NCBI GenBank assembly: GCA_902615715.1
Contig: CACMQA010000004.1
Location: forward strand, 75,814 to 131,602
Length of the DNA: 55,789 nt
Direction: 5' to 3'
DNA from: an uncultured Pelagibacteraceae bacterium
GTDB taxonomy: Bacteria; Pseudomonadota; Alphaproteobacteria; Pelagibacterales; Pelagibacteraceae
A program made the translations under genes and the position numbers. The notes beneath the pieces were generated by a model that did not search any database, was not told where the DNA came from, and saw only the letters and a program-made list of their open reading frames with translations. Shown in pieces: positions 28,893-40,296 of the stretch. Positions within the stretch are counted from its first letter, which is position 1, and each line of letters opens with the position of its first letter.

Positions 28893-29019
28893 TTATTGTT
28901 CAAAATTGATTAACCTTACGCATCTTTGGTCTTGTCCACAATACTTCAAAATCTCTGACAAATGTTCATGTTTTGATTCTATTTTGATTCTATAAGGGAC
29001 TCTAATTTCAACTTTTCAT
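28893..29019 (-). pseudogene. Small ORF (about 41 codons) with an apparent one-base frameshift after its start
   Basis: An ATG at 29019 overlaps the GT2 stop (ATGA), the coupling style used elsewhere in this window. After ATG come four A residues. Reading with three A residues gives a clean 41-residue frame ending in TAA at 28893, eight bases before the next gene. As written, the ATG frame stops at the fourth codon. The encoded peptide starts MKVEIRVPYRIKIESK and contains EILKYCGQDQRCVRLI. Explanations are a homopolymer sequencing error, a recent mutation, or a non-ATG start. The family is not recognised. Confidence 0.4.
28971..28992. repeat. Tandem duplication of an 11-base unit
   Basis: TTTTGATTCTA occurs twice in direct succession (28971-28981 and 28982-28992). 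It lies inside the small frameshifted ORF, where it encodes part of YRIKIESK on the minus strand. The unit length is not a multiple of three, so gain or loss of a copy would shift the frame. Confidence 0.8.
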
Positions 29020-29888
29020 TGAATTATCTTTTTTATATTATCAAGATTATGATGGCTATTTATTAAATCTTTTTCCATTTCTCTTTTTGATACAATAAAA
29101 ATTATCAAATTAAATATTACAATTAAAATTTGAAAAATGATCGAGAAGTTTCCTAGGTATGCATTTAAATAAAACAATGCGATAATTATTAAAGTCGATC
29201 TAAGAAAAACTTGGTATCTAAAAACAGCTATAATAGAAAAAGAGTGTATGATCAACTTCATTAGAGACATTTGAGACGGACCAAAGTATCTTATTCCTCT
29301 AATTGAATTTATTTCATTAAGAGAATTAATGTGTTTTTTTACAGAGCCAGAAAAGCTACTCCATAAACTTGGTTTTGAATGTAATTTTTCGACATCATCT
29401 TTGATCAATAAACTGTAATTTCCAAAGTTTATTTTTTTTCCAGTAAAGAAATAGGTGATAAGTTTATGAAGTATATATAATAACTGAAAAAAAGGACCCT
29501 CTGATCTTTTAACTCTTTTTGCTACAATTGATATTTTAGGACTCTCTTTAATTTTCTCAACCAAACTTTTTATCTCCACTGGTCTATCTTCCCCGTCACC
29601 ATCCATAAGTATTAAATAATCAAATTTTTTATTTTGAAAAATATATCTAATTCCAAAAGCATTACATCTTGCATGGCCTCTATTTTCTTTCATGTTGAGT
29701 ATTTCCAAAGAGTCAAAATTAACCGGCTTAGATATCGCTGGTGGTTGATTAGTTGAAGCATCATTTACGATCAAACAATCAAAGTTAATATCGCTAAAAT
29801 ATTTTATATTTTCATTTATTTCCTTTAATAGTATCTCTAATGACTTCCAATCATTATAAACAGGAATTAAAATTATTATTTTTTTCAT
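29016..29888 (-). CDS. Family 2 glycosyltransferase with C-terminal membrane anchor
   Basis: The 290-residue protein has a GT-A nucleotide-sugar domain: ILIPVYNDWKSLEILL, CLIVNDASTN, RGHARCNAFGIRY, and the DXD-like MDGDGEDRP. Two hydrophobic helices near residues 220-265 then anchor it in the membrane. This resembles polyprenyl-phosphate sugar synthases of the DPM1/ArnC class. Its start overlaps the end of an ArnT-like gene by four bases (ATGA). The pair may load a sugar on a lipid carrier and transfer it outside the membrane. The sugar and acceptor are unknown. Confidence 0.82.
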   Translation of the reverse strand: MKKIIILIPVYNDWKSLEILLKEINENIKYFSDINFDCLIVNDASTNQPPAISKPVNFDSLEILNMKENRGHARCNAFGIRYIFQNKKFDYLILMDGDGEDRPVEIKSLVEKIKESPKISIVAKRVKRSEGPFFQLLYILHKLITYFFTGKKINFGNYSLLIKDDVEKLHSKPSLWSSFSGSVKKHINSLNEINSIRGIRYFGPSQMSLMKLIIHSFSIIAVFRYQVFLRSTLIIIALFYLNAYLGNFSIIFQILIVIFNLIIFIVSKREMEKDLINSHHNLDNIKKIIQ

Positions 29889-31258
29889 CTTCTACCTATC
29901 ATGCAATATCCATTTGGCCTAATGGTTCCAAAAACACCTGGGCATATTTTTTTTAGAACTTCAGGATTCCCAGTATATATCACGCCCTGCTCTTTCGTTA
30001 TTTTAGATGTATTATTTTTAAGATCATTTATCCAAGTAGGTCTTGAATTCAGATGGTAAGACAGGTTTCCAGCCGACCATTCATCTCCTACAACAATTTT
30101 AATTTCATTTATAAAATTATCATCCCATTTATTTTGAACAAGTCTTGCAATTTCTTTACCCGGATAATCTGTTCTCTTAGTTTCATCAGTTAATGAAACT
30201 CCCAAATAAGCTACGGGGGATAATATGAAAAAAAATAAAAAGATATAATAAAAATTTTTAATTTTTTTTAATTCAATTTTTTCTTTAAAGACTAGAAAAA
30301 ATAAAGTTCCAAAAAATAAGTAAAATGGTGTCATCCACATTGTTCTAATTTCTGCTCCGGTTAATATTGAGGTCAATAATAAAAGAATAATAGGTACAAA
30401 ATTTATTGAAATTAAAAACAAAGTTTTTTTATCATTTGTATTTATTTTGAATTTTAATTTTTTTATAAGCGTGAACGCCATTATTAAAAATGGAATTAAG
30501 ATAATTATCTGTTTAAATAAAAAAAAAAATGGATTTTTGAAATGATTTATTAAGTTGAAATCTACGATTCCTGATCTATTCAGACCATAAAAAATTGTTA
30601 CAAAATTATTTTCAAATAACCAGAATATATGGGGAATTAATAAACTTAAAGATATTAGAATTGATAAAGAATAATTTTTTACAGATTTTCTATAACTTCT
30701 GAAATTCAAAACAAAAAAAATAAATAAAGATAGAAGAATAAAAATAAATAAATATTTTGATAAAAAACCCAACGCAGAAAAAATTCCTAAAAATATCCAA
30801 TCAATTTTCTTATTAAAATTTAACCCTTTCCAAAAAAAGTATATTGTTAAAGCCCAAAATGGTAATTGGCTCACATTTACGTTAAATTCAGGAGTAGTAA
30901 AATTATAAAAATAAATACCTGATAAAATTAATACTGCTAATAATGAATGAACTTTATTCTCTAGTATCAAATTTGAAAACTTCCAAATAAAGTAGAAAGA
31001 GGTAATAACAAAAATTTGACTTAACAAATAATAAGCCCAATCGTTTCTTCCGAATATATTGTAAAATATTTCAGCAGCAAAAGCACTAAACGGTGGATGT
31101 TTGTTAAAACCCCAATCCAAATTACTTCCCCATGCTAGAGCTTCGATAGTATCTAAGGGTAAATTAATATTTGAATATGTTGGAATTAATGTCCACATTA
31201 ATAAATGCGTAAAAAGAAATAAAAAGAATAATTTATTTATATTTTTTTTTTGTATCAT
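29885..31258 (-). CDS. ArnT/PMT-like integral membrane glycosyltransferase
   Basis: The 457-residue protein has about eleven hydrophobic helices. The first periplasmic loop has acidic residues (LPLDTIEALAWG) and the sequence WGFNKHPPFSAF, typical of GT39/GT83 transferases that use polyprenyl-phosphate sugars (ArnT, PMT). A soluble C-terminal tail ends in GTIRPNGYCMIGRR. The downstream GT2 could supply its donor. Target candidates are lipid A, other lipids or proteins, with no direct evidence. The gene is divergent from dksA across 76 bases. Confidence 0.78.
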   Translation of the reverse strand: MIQKKNINKLFFLFLFTHLLMWTLIPTYSNINLPLDTIEALAWGSNLDWGFNKHPPFSAFAAEIFYNIFGRNDWAYYLLSQIFVITSFYFIWKFSNLILENKVHSLLAVLILSGIYFYNFTTPEFNVNVSQLPFWALTIYFFWKGLNFNKKIDWIFLGIFSALGFLSKYLFIFILLSLFIFFVLNFRSYRKSVKNYSLSILISLSLLIPHIFWLFENNFVTIFYGLNRSGIVDFNLINHFKNPFFFLFKQIIILIPFLIMAFTLIKKLKFKINTNDKKTLFLISINFVPIILLLLTSILTGAEIRTMWMTPFYLFFGTLFFLVFKEKIELKKIKNFYYIFLFFFILSPVAYLGVSLTDETKRTDYPGKEIARLVQNKWDDNFINEIKIVVGDEWSAGNLSYHLNSRPTWINDLKNNTSKITKEQGVIYTGNPEVLKKICPGVFGTIRPNGYCMIGRR

Positions 31259-31334: not shown

Positions 31335-31760
31335 ATGGTAAAAAAAACCACGACTAAAAAAAAATATATTCCAAACTCTAAGGAAAAATACATGTGCGCT
31401 AAGCATAAAAAATTTTTTACTGAGGAATTGTTAAATTGGAAGAAAGATATCGTTAAAGCAAATAACTTAGGAAATTTGCTAAATTCATCAGATGATAATT
31501 TTTCATCAGCAGATATTGTAGATCAAGCTTCCTCATACACTGATAAATCTGTTGAAATGAAAGCTTTAAACAGAAGTAGAAAATTAATTTCTAAGATAAA
31601 TGCGGCTTTACAAAGAATTAAAGATGATACTTATGGATATTGTGAAGAAACTGGAGAACCAATTGGGTTAAAAAGACTTATGGCTAGGCCTGTAGCTACT
31701 TTATCTATAGAGGCTCAAGAGAGACATGAGAGAGATGAAAAAATTTTCATAGACGATTAA
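31335..31760 (+). CDS. dksA: RNA polymerase-binding transcription factor DksA
   Basis: DksA enters the RNA polymerase secondary channel and works with ppGpp to adjust rRNA and amino acid promoters. The 141-residue protein has a coiled coil whose tip keeps the DxxDxA motif (Asp60, Asp63, Ala65). The C-terminal globular region reads YGYCEETGEPIGLKRL then ATLSIEAQERHE. Only one (Cys103) of the four zinc cysteines remains. This loss is common in alphaproteobacterial DksA, so the fold is presumably zinc-independent. It overlaps the convergent GST gene by 4 bases. Confidence 0.93.
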   Translation: MVKKTTTKKKYIPNSKEKYMCAKHKKFFTEELLNWKKDIVKANNLGNLLNSSDDNFSSADIVDQASSYTDKSVEMKALNRSRKLISKINAALQRIKDDTYGYCEETGEPIGLKRLMARPVATLSIEAQERHERDEKIFIDD

Positions 31761-32383
31761 ACTTTTGGAATTTGCTCTCCTTTATTTAAAAGATCATATC
31801 CCTTCTGCACAGCTTCCCTTTCCGAAATTAATTCATACCATCTTGTTAAATTTTTAAATTTTTTTAACCCAATGTCATGCCACTCATGACGTGCGATCCA
31901 AGGAAAAGTTGCGATATCGGCTATGGTATAATCTTCACCTGCTAAAAACTTAGACTGAGATAGCCTTTCATCAAGTTCATTGTAAATTTTTTCTGCAATT
32001 TTGAAATATCTATTTTCTCCAAATTCACTTTTACCAGGATTGTAATGATGAAATTGATGGTGCTGACCTAACATGGGTCCTACATAAGCCATTTGTCCCA
32101 TTAACCATTGATTGATTATTGTTCTTTGATTTTTGAAATAAAATTTTCCACTTCTTTCTCCTAAATAAATTAATATTGCACCAGACTCAAACAAACTTAT
32201 TTTTTTATCGTGATCAATTATTACCGGAATTTTGCTGAAAGGGCTTAATTTTTTAAATTCAGGTTTAAACTGTTCATTTTTAAAAATATTTACCTTCGTT
32301 ACTTTGTAATCGAATTTAATTTCCTCGAGCATTATAGAGATTTTCTTGCCATTAGGAGTATCGGCAGTAAGTAACTCGATCAC
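31757..32383 (-). CDS. Glutathione S-transferase family protein (YfcG/YghU-like)
   Basis: The 208-residue protein has a thioredoxin-fold N-terminal domain (TADTPNGKKISIMLEE, SPFSKIPVI, and the glutathione-binding LFESGAILIYLGE) and a helical C-terminal domain with AGEDYTIADIATFPWI. The TPNG segment resembles the Nu-class (YfcG/YghU) disulfide-bond reductases, which act on glutathione disulfides more than on electrophiles. It starts with GTG overlapping the reductase stop (GTGA), as the last gene of the ferredoxin operon next to proteorhodopsin. Confidence 0.88.
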   Translation of the reverse strand: MIELLTADTPNGKKISIMLEEIKFDYKVTKVNIFKNEQFKPEFKKLSPFSKIPVIIDHDKKISLFESGAILIYLGERSGKFYFKNQRTIINQWLMGQMAYVGPMLGQHHQFHHYNPGKSEFGENRYFKIAEKIYNELDERLSQSKFLAGEDYTIADIATFPWIARHEWHDIGLKKFKNLTRWYELISEREAVQKGYDLLNKGEQIPKV

Positions 32384-33393
32384 TTTTTTCCTAGTCTATC
32401 TTGAATAGTTTTAGATGATGTAGTGAATTCAAATCTGTATTTTTCATTAGGTCTTGCTCTTTTAAAACACTCAACAGAAGCGAGAGCTACTTCGTGAAAT
32501 CCCGATAGAATTAATTTTAATTTACCGGGATAGCTACAAATATCACCAACAGCAAATATTCCCTTTTTATTAGTTTCAAAATTCTTTGGATTAACTTCAA
32601 TAGTTTTTTTATCCATATTCAGTCCCCACTCCGCAATTGGGCCTAGTTTCATAATTAATCCAAAAAAACCAAGAATGACATCAGTAGGAATTTTTTCAGT
32701 TTTTCCATCATCATATTTAATGGTTATTGATTTTAATTCTTTTTCGCTTTCAAGAGAGTCTATTTGGCAAGGAGTTTTTATAGAAACCTTCCCCTCCTGT
32801 TGTAATTTTCTTATTTCCGATAGTGTATGTTGTGCGCCTCTAAATTCATCTCTTCTATGAATTAATGTGATTTTTGAAAATTTTGAAAGTTCTAAAGCCC
32901 AATCTAAAGCTGAGTCACCACCTCCAAATATTGAAATACTCTTATTTTTAAAATTATCTTTATTTCTTACAGCATAAAATACAGATTTACCCTCAAATTT
33001 TTCGCATTCTTTTAAAGAAATTTTTCTAGGCTCGAATGAACCTACTCCGCCTGCAATTATTATGTTTGGAGCCAAAAATTCTTCATTGTTATTTGTTTTT
33101 ACAATCCAATTATCTTTTTCAGGATAAACTTCCTCAACTCTCTCATTTAAATATAATTCAGTTTTAAAAGGTTTTATTTGTTCAAGTAATCTTTTTGTAA
33201 GTTCTTCACCGGTACACTCTGGCACTGCAGGGATATCGTAGATTGGTTTGTCCGGATACAATTCAATACATTGTCCGCCTGCTTTATCAAGATTATCTAT
33301 GACAACAGCTTTAAGACCTTTTATACCTAATTGATGAACAGCAAAAAGACCTACTGGTCCAGCCCCAATTATTATAACATCTGTTTTTTTCAT
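32380..33393 (-). CDS. Ferredoxin-NADP(+) reductase, thioredoxin-reductase-like type
   Basis: This 337-residue FAD enzyme moves electrons between NADPH and ferredoxin. It has the FAD motif IIGAGPVGLFAV, an NADPH motif IFGGGDSALDWAL and the C-terminal GIFAVGDICSYPGKLKL. The redox-active CxxC of thioredoxin reductase is missing (VFYAVRNKD occupies that place), and a C-terminal extension follows. This fits the YumC-type FNR and not TrxB. The ferredoxin gene directly upstream, joined by a one-base overlap, is the likely redox partner. Confidence 0.92.
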   Translation of the reverse strand: MKKTDVIIIGAGPVGLFAVHQLGIKGLKAVVIDNLDKAGGQCIELYPDKPIYDIPAVPECTGEELTKRLLEQIKPFKTELYLNERVEEVYPEKDNWIVKTNNNEEFLAPNIIIAGGVGSFEPRKISLKECEKFEGKSVFYAVRNKDNFKNKSISIFGGGDSALDWALELSKFSKITLIHRRDEFRGAQHTLSEIRKLQQEGKVSIKTPCQIDSLESEKELKSITIKYDDGKTEKIPTDVILGFFGLIMKLGPIAEWGLNMDKKTIEVNPKNFETNKKGIFAVGDICSYPGKLKLILSGFHEVALASVECFKRARPNEKYRFEFTTSSKTIQDRLGKK

Positions 33394-33713
33394 TAGGATT
33401 GATTTTCTGGCGTCGTAACTTCTAAGCCATCTAATTCATCGCTCACAATTATCTGACAACTTAATCTACTATTTTTTTTGGGTTCATAAGCCATATCGAT
33501 CATATCAACTTCAGCATCTTCTGCTTTTTGTAACTTATTAAACCAAATTTCTTCGACATAAACATGGCAAGTTGCGCAAGCCATTGACCCACCACAATCA
33601 GCATCAATACCCGGAATATCATTTTGGATTGCTCCTTCCATTACTGACAAACCATTTTCTACTTCAATTGTTTTTGAATTTCCTTGTTTATCTTTATAAA
33701 TAATTTTTGCCAT
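33393..33713 (-). CDS. 2Fe-2S ferredoxin (adrenodoxin type)
   Basis: The protein has 106 residues from the ATG at 33713 (MAKIIYKDKQGN). That start overlaps the stop of the preceding microprotein (TAATG) and fits the family N-terminus. Cluster ligands are the Cys residues in ADCGGSMACATCHVY and the distal Cys in SRLSCQI. VEVENGLSVMEGA is also typical. Adrenodoxin-type ferredoxins serve Fe-S assembly or monooxygenases. Here the following gene encodes a matching NADP reductase, so an NADPH-fed electron chain is likely. The terminal acceptor is unknown. Confidence 0.93.
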   Translation of the reverse strand: MAKIIYKDKQGNSKTIEVENGLSVMEGAIQNDIPGIDADCGGSMACATCHVYVEEIWFNKLQKAEDAEVDMIDMAYEPKKNSRLSCQIIVSDELDGLEVTTPENQS

Positions 33714-33844
33714 TAGTGAGCAAGATAAATTGAAATAATAACTATCCAAAAAAAAGCGTAATATAAAATGTAGCCTCTTACCGTAAAAGGCATTTTTTTA
33801 ATTTTACGTTTTCCTTTTCCTTTATATGGTTTTGATAATTCCAT
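33713..33844 (-). CDS. 43-residue single-pass membrane microprotein upstream of ferredoxin
   Basis: Reading the minus strand from ATG at 33844 gives 43 codons ending in TAA at 33713-33715, whose last A is the first base of the ferredoxin ATG. The N-terminal half is strongly basic (KPYKGKGKRKIKKMPF). The C-terminal half is one hydrophobic helix (GYILYYAFFWIVIISIYLAH). A purine-rich AGGAAAGA precedes the ATG. It follows the proteorhodopsin terminator and opens the ferredoxin-FNR-GST operon. I do not recognise the family. The topology suggests an inner-membrane protein with cytoplasmic basic tail. Confidence 0.68.
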   Translation of the reverse strand: MELSKPYKGKGKRKIKKMPFTVRGYILYYAFFWIVIISIYLAH

Positions 33845-33870
33845 TCTTTCCTAAATATAAGTATCTAAAG

Positions 33871-33909
33871 AAAAAGGGCAAGTACGCATAACGTACCCGC
33901 CCTTTTTTT
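33871..33909 (-). terminator. Intrinsic terminator after proteorhodopsin
   Basis: GGGC (33876-33879) pairs with GCCC (33899-33902). After a small internal mismatch, GTACG pairs with CGTAC around a 5-base loop. Flanking A and T tracts (33871-33875 and 33903-33909) give a U-run on the proteorhodopsin transcript. It begins about 16 bases after the stop codon. It is the clearest intrinsic terminator in the window and should make most proteorhodopsin mRNA monocistronic. Confidence 0.85.
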
Positions 33910-33924
33910 ATAAATTATTATCTA

Positions 33925-34695
33925 TTATCTAGATGCTAATCTTGTGTTTTGCATTGCTGCTGCCCAGATAACTAGACCGAAAGCGATCTTATTAACAAAG
34001 TCAGCTAAATTGTAAATTATGTTTAAAGCATTTGCATCAACACCACCAGTTAGGTAACCGAAAATATATCCAAGAGGATATATAGCCCAACCAATAGTTA
34101 CGATTATTCTCATAGCACTGAACGCAGTAGACATTGCTTTGTTACCAGCTTTTGCCGCCATAGTTCCAGCTTCACCTGAGAATATTTCAAACAAGATGTA
34201 AATCCATCCAGCCATTCCAATTACGAAACCTACAAATGGTTGAATATAACCAGCTTCACCTAAGTATCCACCGATTAACATTACTAAAGAACCAATTAAT
34301 AGCTTCCAGAATATAGAAGTTGGCACCTTTCTTACAGCTGCCAAGATTAGATAGAATTCGATCATTTGAAGTGGCACTGTGATTAACCAGTCAATATATC
34401 TGTATACTGTTGGTGTATCACCTGTAGTCACCCAAACTTCTCTCATATACATGTAGTGAACGAATGCAACACCAGTTACAAGTCCAGCTACCGTTAAAGA
34501 TGTTCTCCATGATGCAGCTACTGTGTTTCTTTCTGCAAAGAAAAATACTGTAGTTGCGATCATACCCATTGATACAAGCCAGAAAGATATTCCTACGAAA
34601 TCTCCTGTCTCTAACATAGGGGTTGCTGCATTAGCAGAACCTGTTAAACCCAACACGGCAACGGTTGCTAGTGCAAACATTTTTAATTTACTCAT
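33925..34695 (-). CDS. Proteorhodopsin, blue-tuned proton pump
   Basis: This 256-residue seven-helix retinal protein has a cleavable signal (MSKLKMFALATVAVLGLTGSANA). Key residues, with the standard green-proteorhodopsin numbers in parentheses, are proton acceptor Asp102 (97) in YRYIDWL, proton donor Glu113 (108) in MIEFYLIL, His80 (75) in VHYMYM and the retinal Schiff-base Lys236 (231) in DFVNKIAFG. The tuning position is Gln110 (105) in VPLQ, which is associated with blue absorption. All residues for outward proton pumping are present. A strong GGGAGG ribosome binding site lies five bases before the ATG. Codon use is less AT-extreme than in neighbours, fitting high expression. No retinal biosynthesis genes occur in the window. 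Confidence 0.97.
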   Translation of the reverse strand: MSKLKMFALATVAVLGLTGSANAATPMLETGDFVGISFWLVSMGMIATTVFFFAERNTVAASWRTSLTVAGLVTGVAFVHYMYMREVWVTTGDTPTVYRYIDWLITVPLQMIEFYLILAAVRKVPTSIFWKLLIGSLVMLIGGYLGEAGYIQPFVGFVIGMAGWIYILFEIFSGEAGTMAAKAGNKAMSTAFSAMRIIVTIGWAIYPLGYIFGYLTGGVDANALNIIYNLADFVNKIAFGLVIWAAAMQNTRLASR

Positions 34696-38161: not shown

Positions 38162-39043
38162 ATGGAAAAAGATCAAATTATTTTATTAGAAGATCGTGGA
38201 TTAATCTCAATAATTGGTGAAGATACCAAAAATTTTCTTCAAAAAATCATTACAAATGATATTAATAAAGTAAGTTTTTCTTCCTCAATTTTTTCAGCAC
38301 TTTTTACGCCCCAAGGAAAATATTTATTTGAATTTTTTTTGATACAAACAAAGAATGGTTATCTTTTAGATTGTGATAATGAATTTACAAGAGAAATAAT
38401 GAATTACTTATTGAAATATAAATTAAGATCAAAAATTGAAATAACAGATATTTCCACAGAATATGTAATTGGATTAATAAGCTCAGAAAAATTTTTAGAT
38501 ATTCAAGAAAGTGAAAACAAAACTGACGATACGATAGAGTTTAGGGATAGCCCTCTTTTTCTAGATCCTCGAAATAAAAATTTAGGAGCAAGAATATTAT
38601 CCTCATTAGAAAAATTGTATCTTACTATAAAAAAATTAGACTTAAAAATTGTTAAGCCCGACACATATTTTGCAAAAGCTCATTCTTTAGGAATTCCAAT
38701 AAAAGGTATTAAAAATTTAAAAGATCAATTATTTGGATTAGAAGCAAACTTTGAGGAACTTAACGCAATTGATTTTAAAAAGGGATGCTACATCGGTCAA
38801 GAAAACACTGCTAGAATGAAATTAAAAGAAAAATTAAGAAGAAGATTATTACCGATTTCTTCTACCGAAAAATTAAATTTAGGGGAAGAAATTTTTTATA
38901 ATAAGAACAAAATAGGTAAAATACTCATCGAACAACCTTATCCATTTGGTTTGATAAAAGTCATAGATCCAAATATTAAAGACTTTGAAAATAAAGAACT
39001 TTTAGCAAATAACAAAAAGTGTAGAATTTTAAAGAGCGTTTAA
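38162..39043 (+). CDS. ygfZ: YgfZ/GcvT-like folate-binding protein
   Basis: YgfZ proteins bind tetrahydrofolate and help make or repair certain Fe-S enzymes. The 293-residue protein has the GcvT-like fold and the family signature KGCYIGQENTARM (about residue 213), whose Cys is required in E. coli YgfZ. The early LEDRGLISIIGEDTKNFLQ and PQGKYLFEFFL segments also fit. The 3' end overlaps a possible small ORF on the other strand by 15 bases. Confidence 0.88.
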   Translation: MEKDQIILLEDRGLISIIGEDTKNFLQKIITNDINKVSFSSSIFSALFTPQGKYLFEFFLIQTKNGYLLDCDNEFTREIMNYLLKYKLRSKIEITDISTEYVIGLISSEKFLDIQESENKTDDTIEFRDSPLFLDPRNKNLGARILSSLEKLYLTIKKLDLKIVKPDTYFAKAHSLGIPIKGIKNLKDQLFGLEANFEELNAIDFKKGCYIGQENTARMKLKEKLRRRLLPISSTEKLNLGEEIFYNKNKIGKILIEQPYPFGLIKVIDPNIKDFENKELLANNKKCRILKSV

Positions 39044-39148
39044 TAATCTTGAAAGAGAAGCTAATATCCCATAACCGCTCAATTCAATAAAAGCTATAAC
39101 TAAAATTATAAGCACTATTCGTTTATTTTTTTTTAAATAATCAATCAT
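39029..39148 (-). CDS. Possible 39-residue single-pass membrane microprotein downstream of tRNA-Leu
   Basis: An ATG at 39148 opens 39 codons. A basic start (MIDYLKKNKR) is followed by a hydrophobic helix (IVLIILVIAFIELSGYG) and a short tail ending LLNAL. It starts 13 bases after the tRNA-Leu 3' end on the same strand and could share its transcript. No ribosome binding site is visible and AT-rich DNA can mimic such helices, so this is tentative. No family is recognised. Confidence 0.38.
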   Translation of the reverse strand: MIDYLKKNKRIVLIILVIAFIELSGYGILASLSRLLNAL

Positions 39149-39161
39149 AAATAAGCTTTTC

Positions 39162-39245
39162 TGGTGCGGTCGGAGAGACTCGAACTCTCACGGGAAACCC
39201 ACACGCCCCTCAAGCGTGCCTGTCTACCAATTTCAGCACGACCGC
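39162..39245 (-). tRNA. tRNA-Leu (anticodon GAG)
   Basis: The minus strand folds as a class II tRNA. The acceptor stem pairs GCGGTCG with CGACCGC. The anticodon stem is CACGC/GCGTG with loop TTGAGGG, giving anticodon GAG at 39209-39211. A long variable arm follows, then a T arm GAGAG-TTCGAGT-CTCTC. The 3' CCA is encoded (39162-39164). It reads CUC and CUU leucine codons and is divergent from nadA. Confidence 0.95.
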
Positions 39246-39306: not shown

Positions 39307-40296
39307 ATGTCTGTACAGCAACGAAATTTAAACGGTTCTAGCGAGATTTACAAAAAAATCTCAAAATTTGTCCCTGAAAATGAATGGAAAGTTCATGCTC
39401 CTTTAATTGAAAAGATTAATAAATTAAAAAAGGAAAAAAACGCAATCATACTTGCTCATAATTATCAAACCCCAGAAATTTATCACGGAGTAGCAGACAT
39501 AGCGGCGGACTCTTTAGCGCTAGCAGTTGAAGCCGCAAAGACTTCTGCAGATAAAATTATTATGTGCGGGGTACACTTTATGGCTGAGACAGCAAAACTA
39601 ATGAACCCAAATAAAAAAGTTTTTTTACCAGACATGCAAGCGGGTTGTTCTTTAGCAAGTTCAATTACTGGAAAAGATGTAAGATTATTAAAACAAAAAT
39701 ATCCGGGTGTTCCAGTAGTATCATATGTTAATACCTCTGCTGATGTAAAAGCGGAAACGGATGTTTGTTGTACTTCTGCAAATGCTGTAAAAGTAGTGGA
39801 GTCTTTAAACGCAGAAAAAGTAATTTTTCTTCCAGACCAATATTTAGCAGATTATGTTGCAAAAAATACGAAAGTAAAAATTATCTCTTGGAAAGGAACT
39901 TGTATTGTTCACGAACAATTTACTAGTAAAGAGATTAAAGATATTAAAAATCAAAACCCAGGTATCAAAGTCATAGCTCATCCTGAATGCCCGCCAGATG
40001 TAATCGAAGCATCAGACTTTGCCGGATCAACATCTGGTATGATTAAATACGTAAAAGATAATCAACCTAAAAAAGTGATGTTAGTAACTGAGTGTTCAAT
40101 GAGTGATAATGTCGAAGCTGATAATCCGGACGTATCTTTCATCAAACCATGTAATCTTTGTCCTTACATGAAAAAAATTGATTTAAAAAAAATCCTAGAT
40201 TGTTTAGAAAATGATACTAATGAAATAGTTTTAGATAATAAAACTATTGAAGCTGCAAGAAAATCTGTAATTAGAATGACCGAAATTGGTCGTTAG
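39307..40296 (+). CDS. nadA: Quinolinate synthase NadA
   Basis: NadA condenses iminoaspartate with dihydroxyacetone phosphate to quinolinate in NAD synthesis, using a 4Fe-4S cluster. The 329-residue protein has AIILAHNYQTPEIY, MCGVHFMAETAK, DMQAGCSLA, AHPECPPDV and the C-terminal Cys pair in FIKPCNLCPYMK. nadC follows, with starts close to or overlapping the nadA stop. The nadB gene that supplies iminoaspartate is not in this window. Confidence 0.96.
   Translation: MSVQQRNLNGSSEIYKKISKFVPENEWKVHAPLIEKINKLKKEKNAIILAHNYQTPEIYHGVADIAADSLALAVEAAKTSADKIIMCGVHFMAETAKLMNPNKKVFLPDMQAGCSLASSITGKDVRLLKQKYPGVPVVSYVNTSADVKAETDVCCTSANAVKVVESLNAEKVIFLPDQYLADYVAKNTKVKIISWKGTCIVHEQFTSKEIKDIKNQNPGIKVIAHPECPPDVIEASDFAGSTSGMIKYVKDNQPKKVMLVTECSMSDNVEADNPDVSFIKPCNLCPYMKKIDLKKILDCLENDTNEIVLDNKTIEAARKSVIRMTEIGR

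Follow-up and report, generated by a model that had tools for sequence, protein, structure and literature searches.

Several membrane complexes of bacteria include a small accessory subunit that crosses the membrane once, such as CydX, CcoQ/FixQ, AcrZ, and KdpF. The two microproteins described here, MpA and MpB, are like them in having about 30-50 residues, one helix, and a short charged tail. CcoQ/FixQ is recognized by the position of its gene inside a cbb3 oxidase operon, whereas MpA differs from it in both sequence and context: the best match to the FixQ model PF05545 has an E-value of 0.49 and comes from one of 25 MpA members (none from the window protein), and no oxidase gene was recognized beside MpA at the sites read, the neighbor labels being model-confirmed for part of these. 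The CcoS model matches one MpB member only (E 0.29). Respiratory small subunits were thus rejected as candidates, their family models giving only chance-level matches. The likeness of MpA to mitochondrial COX7C/Cox8, which comes from the motif of these proteins, was also rejected, as a PDB profile search to E 10 lists none of them and gives one chance match with E 0.61. Finally, the RC1041 family of Rickettsia (NF047981) consists of a short protein to which one MpB member aligns over 33 residues, but its score of 13.9 bits (E 0.032) falls far short of the cut-off, which is 90.

At curated cut-offs, MpA has no match in Pfam, NCBIfam, PHROGs, or PADLOC, and MpB has none in Pfam, NCBIfam, or PADLOC; neither finds a PDB chain at E < 0.001. 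Chance-level library matches of MpA include zf-CCCH_8 (E 0.016) and AimP (E 0.078), each in one of 25 members, and in NCBIfam the best E-value that any MpB member reached is 0.0026, to MG_279/MG_280, with 17.5 bits where the cut-off is 125. Among the titles and abstract openings searched, no paper on the MpA gene was found, and the accessible part of PMC5069720 contains nothing on its locus. PMC11364881 is, according to its accessible part, a catalogue of small proteins. The available text of PMC2704228 states that intergenic regions of HTCC1062 with conserved coding sequence were excluded and placed in the supplement, and MpA or MpB may figure in that list.

The MpA gene and its conservation

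The window, that is, the whole analyzed stretch of 55,789 nucleotides from an uncultured Pelagibacteraceae bacterium, contains the following features around MpA and MpB:

29016-29888, minus strand: family 2 glycosyltransferase
29885-31258, minus strand: PMT_2-type glycosyltransferase; this and the preceding gene flank MpB in 31 of 90 g6 loci
31335-31760, plus strand: DksA-like protein
31757-32383, minus strand: GST; the DksA-like and GST genes flank the usual g6 site of MpA-MpB
32380-33393, minus strand: pyridine-nucleotide disulphide oxidoreductase, thioredoxin-reductase-like (below the NCBIfam cut-off)
33393-33713, minus strand: 2Fe-2S ferredoxin (Fer2), 106 aa, with one base in common with the MpA stop codon
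33713-33844, minus strand: MpA, basic single-helix membrane microprotein of 43 aa (from the ORF, conservation, and AlphaFold2)
33854-33859, minus strand: TATATT hexamer, separated from the MpA ATG by 9 nt; it precedes the ferredoxin ATG in most MpA-less genomes
33871-33907, minus strand: proteorhodopsin terminator hairpin (-24.6 kcal/mol, z -7.1, none of 200 shuffles as good)
33925-34695, minus strand: proteorhodopsin (PR), by model match
38162-39043, plus strand: YgfZ-like protein, its 3' end sharing 15 nt with the oppositely oriented MpB
39029-39148, minus strand: MpB, single-helix microprotein of 39 aa with IELSGYGI; its homologues overlap MpA homologues in g6
39162-39245, minus strand: tRNA-Leu (gag), just upstream of MpB
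39307-40296, plus strand: quinolinate synthase NadA, the other neighbor of the tRNA-MpB unit

The interval 29016-40296 matches many addresses of MpA and MpB in the window's genus (g1) and in g6: PR/ferredoxin, DksA/GST, the glycosyltransferase pair, and YgfZ/nadA.

The minus-strand ORF of MpA encodes MELSKPYKGKGKRKIKKMPFTVRGYILYYAFFWIVIISIYLAH (43 aa), and its TAA (33715-33713) has base 33713 in common with the ferredoxin ATG (33713-33711). Residues 1-23 carry Lys or Arg at nine positions and an acidic residue at one. A membrane segment is predicted at residues 24-42, and the AlphaFold2 model has a single helix at 22-42 (pLDDT 84-96 in blocks from residue 21) and no element in residues 1-20 (pLDDT 56-60). 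The helix is aromatic, with GYxxYY followed by a W/F-rich part in g1. A distance of 80 nt separates the PR stop codon from the MpA ATG, which is just past the terminator hairpin. The hairpin folds strongly and was not listed by the terminator scan. The earlier note had described the main features from the letters, namely a 43-codon frame overlapping the ferredoxin start by one base, a very basic N-terminal half, one hydrophobic C-terminal helix, and a start next to the PR terminator, and the description agrees with the present results. Its view of MpA as an unrecognized membrane microprotein also holds, the coding frame being conserved and curated family models giving no match.

Among 20,000 random sequences of 211 nt and equal composition, 460 contained a closed ATG frame of 43 codons (one strand); the length of MpA alone is thus weak evidence, and its relatives must decide. 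In 37 distinct genes (666 pairs) the pooled pN/pS is 0.141, and the median dN/dS is 0.071 over the 618 pairs with pS < 0.7, leaving 48 pairs out of the median and L109 out of the set due to an indel. The codon alignment has 17, 12, and 40 variable columns of 42 at codon positions 1, 2, and 3, respectively, and the other two frames of the 37 genes contain 116 and 94 stops. The pN/pS of ferredoxin, from the MpA-bearing loci and some further g1 loci, is 0.168. An unconserved frame or a dN/dS near 1 had been named beforehand as grounds for abandoning the gene; with the median at 0.071, it stands. Since the frame is conserved across relatives, we take MpA as a real gene, strongly conserved and under purifying selection. 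The features defining the family (a basic tail, Y-x-x-Y-Y, and one hydrophobic helix extending to the C-terminus) are present in its members. MpA of g6 is related to the window type with an hhalign probability of 95-96%, none of 60 composition-keeping shuffles being as good; the match of the g281 type to the g6 homologue found before agmatinase is weak (42%, one of 60 shuffles as good).

Ferredoxin is present in 80 of 101 relatives, 45 of them in g1 (one partial) and 35 in f2, another family of the same order. A search for the frame itself found MpA in 38 of 61 g1 genomes, all with E-values no higher than 6e-15. The 40 f2 genomes, among them the 35 with ferredoxin, gave no MpA; their best match had E 0.09. 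Where both ferredoxin and thiolase were found in g1, MpA is present in 32 of 34 genomes, G013 and G024 being the exceptions. Across the family, a profile that mostly misses g6-type MpA detected it in 132 of 397 sampled genomes, and in 13 of the 140 with the highest completeness. Retesting with a broader profile left MpA undetected in seven g1 genomes, including G487 and G499 (98% complete); G499 has MpB. The complete g6 genomes G397, G506, G539, and G554 have neither MpA nor MpB at a convincing score. Beyond Pelagibacterales, a search of 385 genomes sampled from the class yielded, besides the own genome, a single fragment with E 0.001 that lies within a frame of 179 codons. The titles of the 80 listed of 106 named relatives all read Pelagibacteraceae, Pelagibacterales, or Pelagibacter. 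Judging from the genomes searched, MpA would so far be known from SAR11 ocean bacteria only. Viral carriage was considered and rejected: none of 138 pattern matches in viral_contigs is a relative. SAR11 genomes are a textbook case of streamlining, and the cells are very abundant; a conserved 43-codon gene outside all family models in such genomes points to a missed function.

Sites of MpA and the ferredoxin start codon

Two sites account for MpA in the 38 g1 genomes: 24 have it between PR and ferredoxin (PR-MpA-Fd), and 14 directly after acetyl-CoA acetyltransferase (thiolase), a neighbor whose identity is supported by a family model. The listed named loci (80 of 106) comprise 62 and 18 of these arrangements, respectively. 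The exact overlap of MpA and ferredoxin is not general, as the 62 PR-MpA-Fd loci, with the ferredoxin start at the position given by alignment, include 12 with an exact TAATG, 10 with an 8-nt overlap, and 40 with a gap of 1-15 nt. At the thiolase site the two genes share a base of TAATG in 13 of the 14 g1 genomes and are one base further apart in G033; among the 18 listed named loci, 17 have the MpA start codon overlapping the stop codon of thiolase. The gene downstream of MpA varies there by genome, being a histone-deacetylase-family gene (a label resting on a model match with a joined query), acetoacetate-CoA ligase, or others. No MpA follows thiolase in the 17 of 24 ferredoxin-site genomes whose thiolase end was read, and 12 of the 14 thiolase-site genomes carry ferredoxin without adjacent MpA. 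In four loci (L114, L115, L121, and L134), thiolase or MpA is followed by another conserved frame of 58-59 codons, M-K/N-TY.C(K/R)KCGLTIP..CS.CDRVVD with paired CxxC, which resembles a small zinc-ribbon protein.

Outside g1, all 11 loci read (of 26 matches) in genera g281, g282, and g286 have MpA after thiolase, although in one of them, G566, the locus is truncated and includes only the last thiolase bases. In four g1 genomes the gene next to MpA is that for formate-tetrahydrofolate ligase, a site where MpA has a neighbor on the opposite strand, and five g6 genomes have a divergent homologue just before agmatinase; each of these neighbors was model-checked in one genome. Weak MpA-like frames beside a DsbD-like gene in G529 and G559 (per-genome E 0.70 and 0.33) gave, as a two-sequence profile, a probability of 96% with none of 60 shuffles as good. 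A membrane protein of 152 aa, MESLKNWMRDTANILFDDSKNDLRSLPKTVRLQ... in L299 (G539) and L302 (G307), gave weak MpA-profile matches with E 0.05-0.3 in several g6 genomes. The coupling of MpA to ferredoxin proposed in the earlier note therefore applies to a subset (24 of 38 g1 genomes) and fails elsewhere, at the thiolase, agmatinase, and MpB sites. MpA as a subunit of proteorhodopsin was rejected, as it is located away from PR in 14 of 38 g1 genomes.

We then compared the sites with a tree of ferredoxin, reductase, and PR containing 47 rows (G001 and G050, in which no ferredoxin was found, were left out). All 24 ferredoxin-site rows fall in one group of 29 (SH-aLRT 99), together with three rows lacking MpA and two thiolase-site rows (G007 and G032). 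The remaining thiolase-site rows are placed outside this group, rootward, on branches with support of 83-89. Three site changes occur on the tree between ferredoxin and thiolase sites, and the ferredoxin label needs five if absence of MpA is counted as a state. Since it was built from that very locus, the tree fits one relocation of MpA with two returns and an exchange of the PR locus equally well. The thiolase site looks ancestral, and the ferredoxin site would fit one derived relocation.

The spacer between PR and ferredoxin has a median length of 76 nt in 19 rows without MpA versus 210 nt in 25 rows with it (one of which, L031, duplicates L001), the difference being about one MpA ORF. Before the first ATG, mostly at a distance of 6-7 nt (9 in the window), the hexamer TATATT occurs in 16 of the 24 leaders of MpA and in 17 of the 19 of ferredoxin, compared with about 2 in shuffles. 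The number of promoter-scan matches such as TTGCCC-16-TATATT (33881-33854) does not exceed chance. Because the spacer is longer by about one ORF and the TATATT leader is common to both arrangements, MpA appears to have been inserted at the ferredoxin start codon, behind the promoter-like leader of that gene. The transcript of PR-MpA-Fd would then be near-leaderless. MpA would be a clean example of a tiny gene placed at the start codon of another gene.

MpB and the MpA-MpB pair

Six loci of g6 have, directly behind an MpA-like frame and overlapping it, another frame of 31-34 codons. A profile of five of these g6 sequences, designated MpB, matches the window genome (E 3.3e-10; 39029-39148, minus strand) and further g1 genomes. 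In 12 aligned sequences the residues I-E, S-G, and G-I of the motif IExSGxGI are invariant. With 36 MpB sequences from several genera, pN/pS comes to 0.247 when every pair is counted; for 38 close pairs the value is 0.026. The protein is predicted to form one long helix. MpB is not an MpA homologue, the hhalign probability being 0.3% with 10 of 60 shuffles as good. Within g1, a search detected MpB in 36 of 64 genomes, and 16 other genomes in the same search gave none; in g6 it is present in 94 of 138 genomes, among them 18 of the 22 most complete. In 337 genomes sampled from the class to look beyond Pelagibacterales, the matches were the own genome, one from g6, and 12 partial ones with E >= 0.006. 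MpB was undetected in all eight tested g281 genomes that carry MpA, in three g6 genomes with MpA before agmatinase, and in G634. At L303 and L305 its neighbor is presumably a TRAP-type permease.

Of the 94 g6 loci, 90 were read (G980, G912, G789, and G907 were left out), and in 52 of these an MpA homologue ends at the MpB start, with a 4-nt overlap in 43, a 1-nt overlap in seven, and abutting ends in two; two of the 90 loci, G515 and G732, contributed sequences to the MpA model that scored them. The pair follows DksA in 44 of the 52 loci, precedes GST beside another or unassigned gene in four, and occupies a different site in four; in G522 it follows carbamoyl-phosphate synthase. The presence of the pair in the DksA/GST region (48 loci), elsewhere (four), and at the G522 site means that it stayed together while its site differed. 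MpB is a more constant companion of MpA than ferredoxin. The other 38 MpB loci lack an adjacent MpA, and 33 of them touch one or both glycosyltransferase genes, a pair located 8-9 kb away from MpB in the window. Both genes are present in 30 of 61 g1 genomes, MpA only in eight, MpB only in six, and neither in 17 (Fisher p 1e-4, confounded by incomplete assemblies); in the assemblies of five of the six MpB-only genomes, thiolase is missing as well.

Possible roles of MpA and MpB

These data comprise the reality of the gene, its distribution in the searched genomes, its alternative sites, and the g6 overlap of MpA and MpB; the helix is a model prediction. MpA and MpB may well form a two-part inner-membrane accessory module of Pelagibacteraceae, its helices packed together and serving a larger complex, a proposal we consider evenly balanced. 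MpA would be a single-pass inner-membrane microprotein with its flexible basic tail most likely in the cytoplasm, and its helix would pack in the membrane against that of MpB, the small residues of MpB facing the aromatic side of MpA. The pair would then assist a larger membrane complex, encoded elsewhere, in the manner of a small accessory subunit or an adaptor, and the place beside ferredoxin would supply MpA with expression, behind the ferredoxin leader, rather than with a functional partner. Somewhat more tentatively, the two may constitute a dedicated two-helix complex of Pelagibacteraceae origin, kept in several genera of this family despite streamlining, with genes that moved together or singly under continued strong selection.

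With the chances for it about equal to those against, we rank the two-helix accessory module above the reading that MpA and MpB work independently, each as a small subunit or assembly factor, in the same large complex or in two different ones (respiratory, for instance), with gene addresses dictated by expression needs alone. Such independence is possible but rather doubtful: MpA without detected MpB in g281 and the many unrelated addresses of MpA are consistent with it, whereas the direct contact of the two genes, by overlap or abutting ends, at 52 of 90 MpB loci in g6, not all of them at one site, argues against it. The module is ranked well above the proposal of the earlier note that MpA serves as the membrane dock of ferredoxin or its reductase next to proteorhodopsin. 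The overlap or gap of at most 15 nt in the 62 listed named loci agrees with such docking, and the basic tail could bind an acidic ferredoxin, but 12 thiolase-site g1 genomes and 35 f2 genomes have ferredoxin with no MpA beside it or no MpA at all, other genera keep MpA after thiolase, and a single relocation can account for the linkage. With ferredoxin so often lacking an adjacent MpA, and MpA so often found by thiolase, agmatinase, or MpB, we regard this docking as improbable and abandon it.

Even less probable is a tether holding acetyl-CoA acetyltransferase at the membrane: the apparently ancestral thiolase site and the start-stop overlap with thiolase speak for it, but MpA adjoins ferredoxin instead in 24 of 38 g1 genomes, the 17 ferredoxin-site genomes read have no copy after thiolase, and the g6 homologues are located elsewhere. 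The least probable role is that of a leader peptide controlling the downstream gene, or of a small toxin. A short, aromatic-rich frame directly upstream of a gene, as in the window, could suggest either, but the downstream gene differs by site and the neighbor is on the opposite strand at the formate-tetrahydrofolate ligase site, selection acts at the amino-acid level, and the defence library gave no match. Function should be read with caution from a famous neighbor, as relocation of one gene can explain the link of MpA to PR and ferredoxin. The MpA-MpB pair offers a concrete unit that is open to testing. The two genes are 5.2 kb apart in the window and 2 kb apart in G491 and G498, and in the window this proximity may be an ancestral relic.
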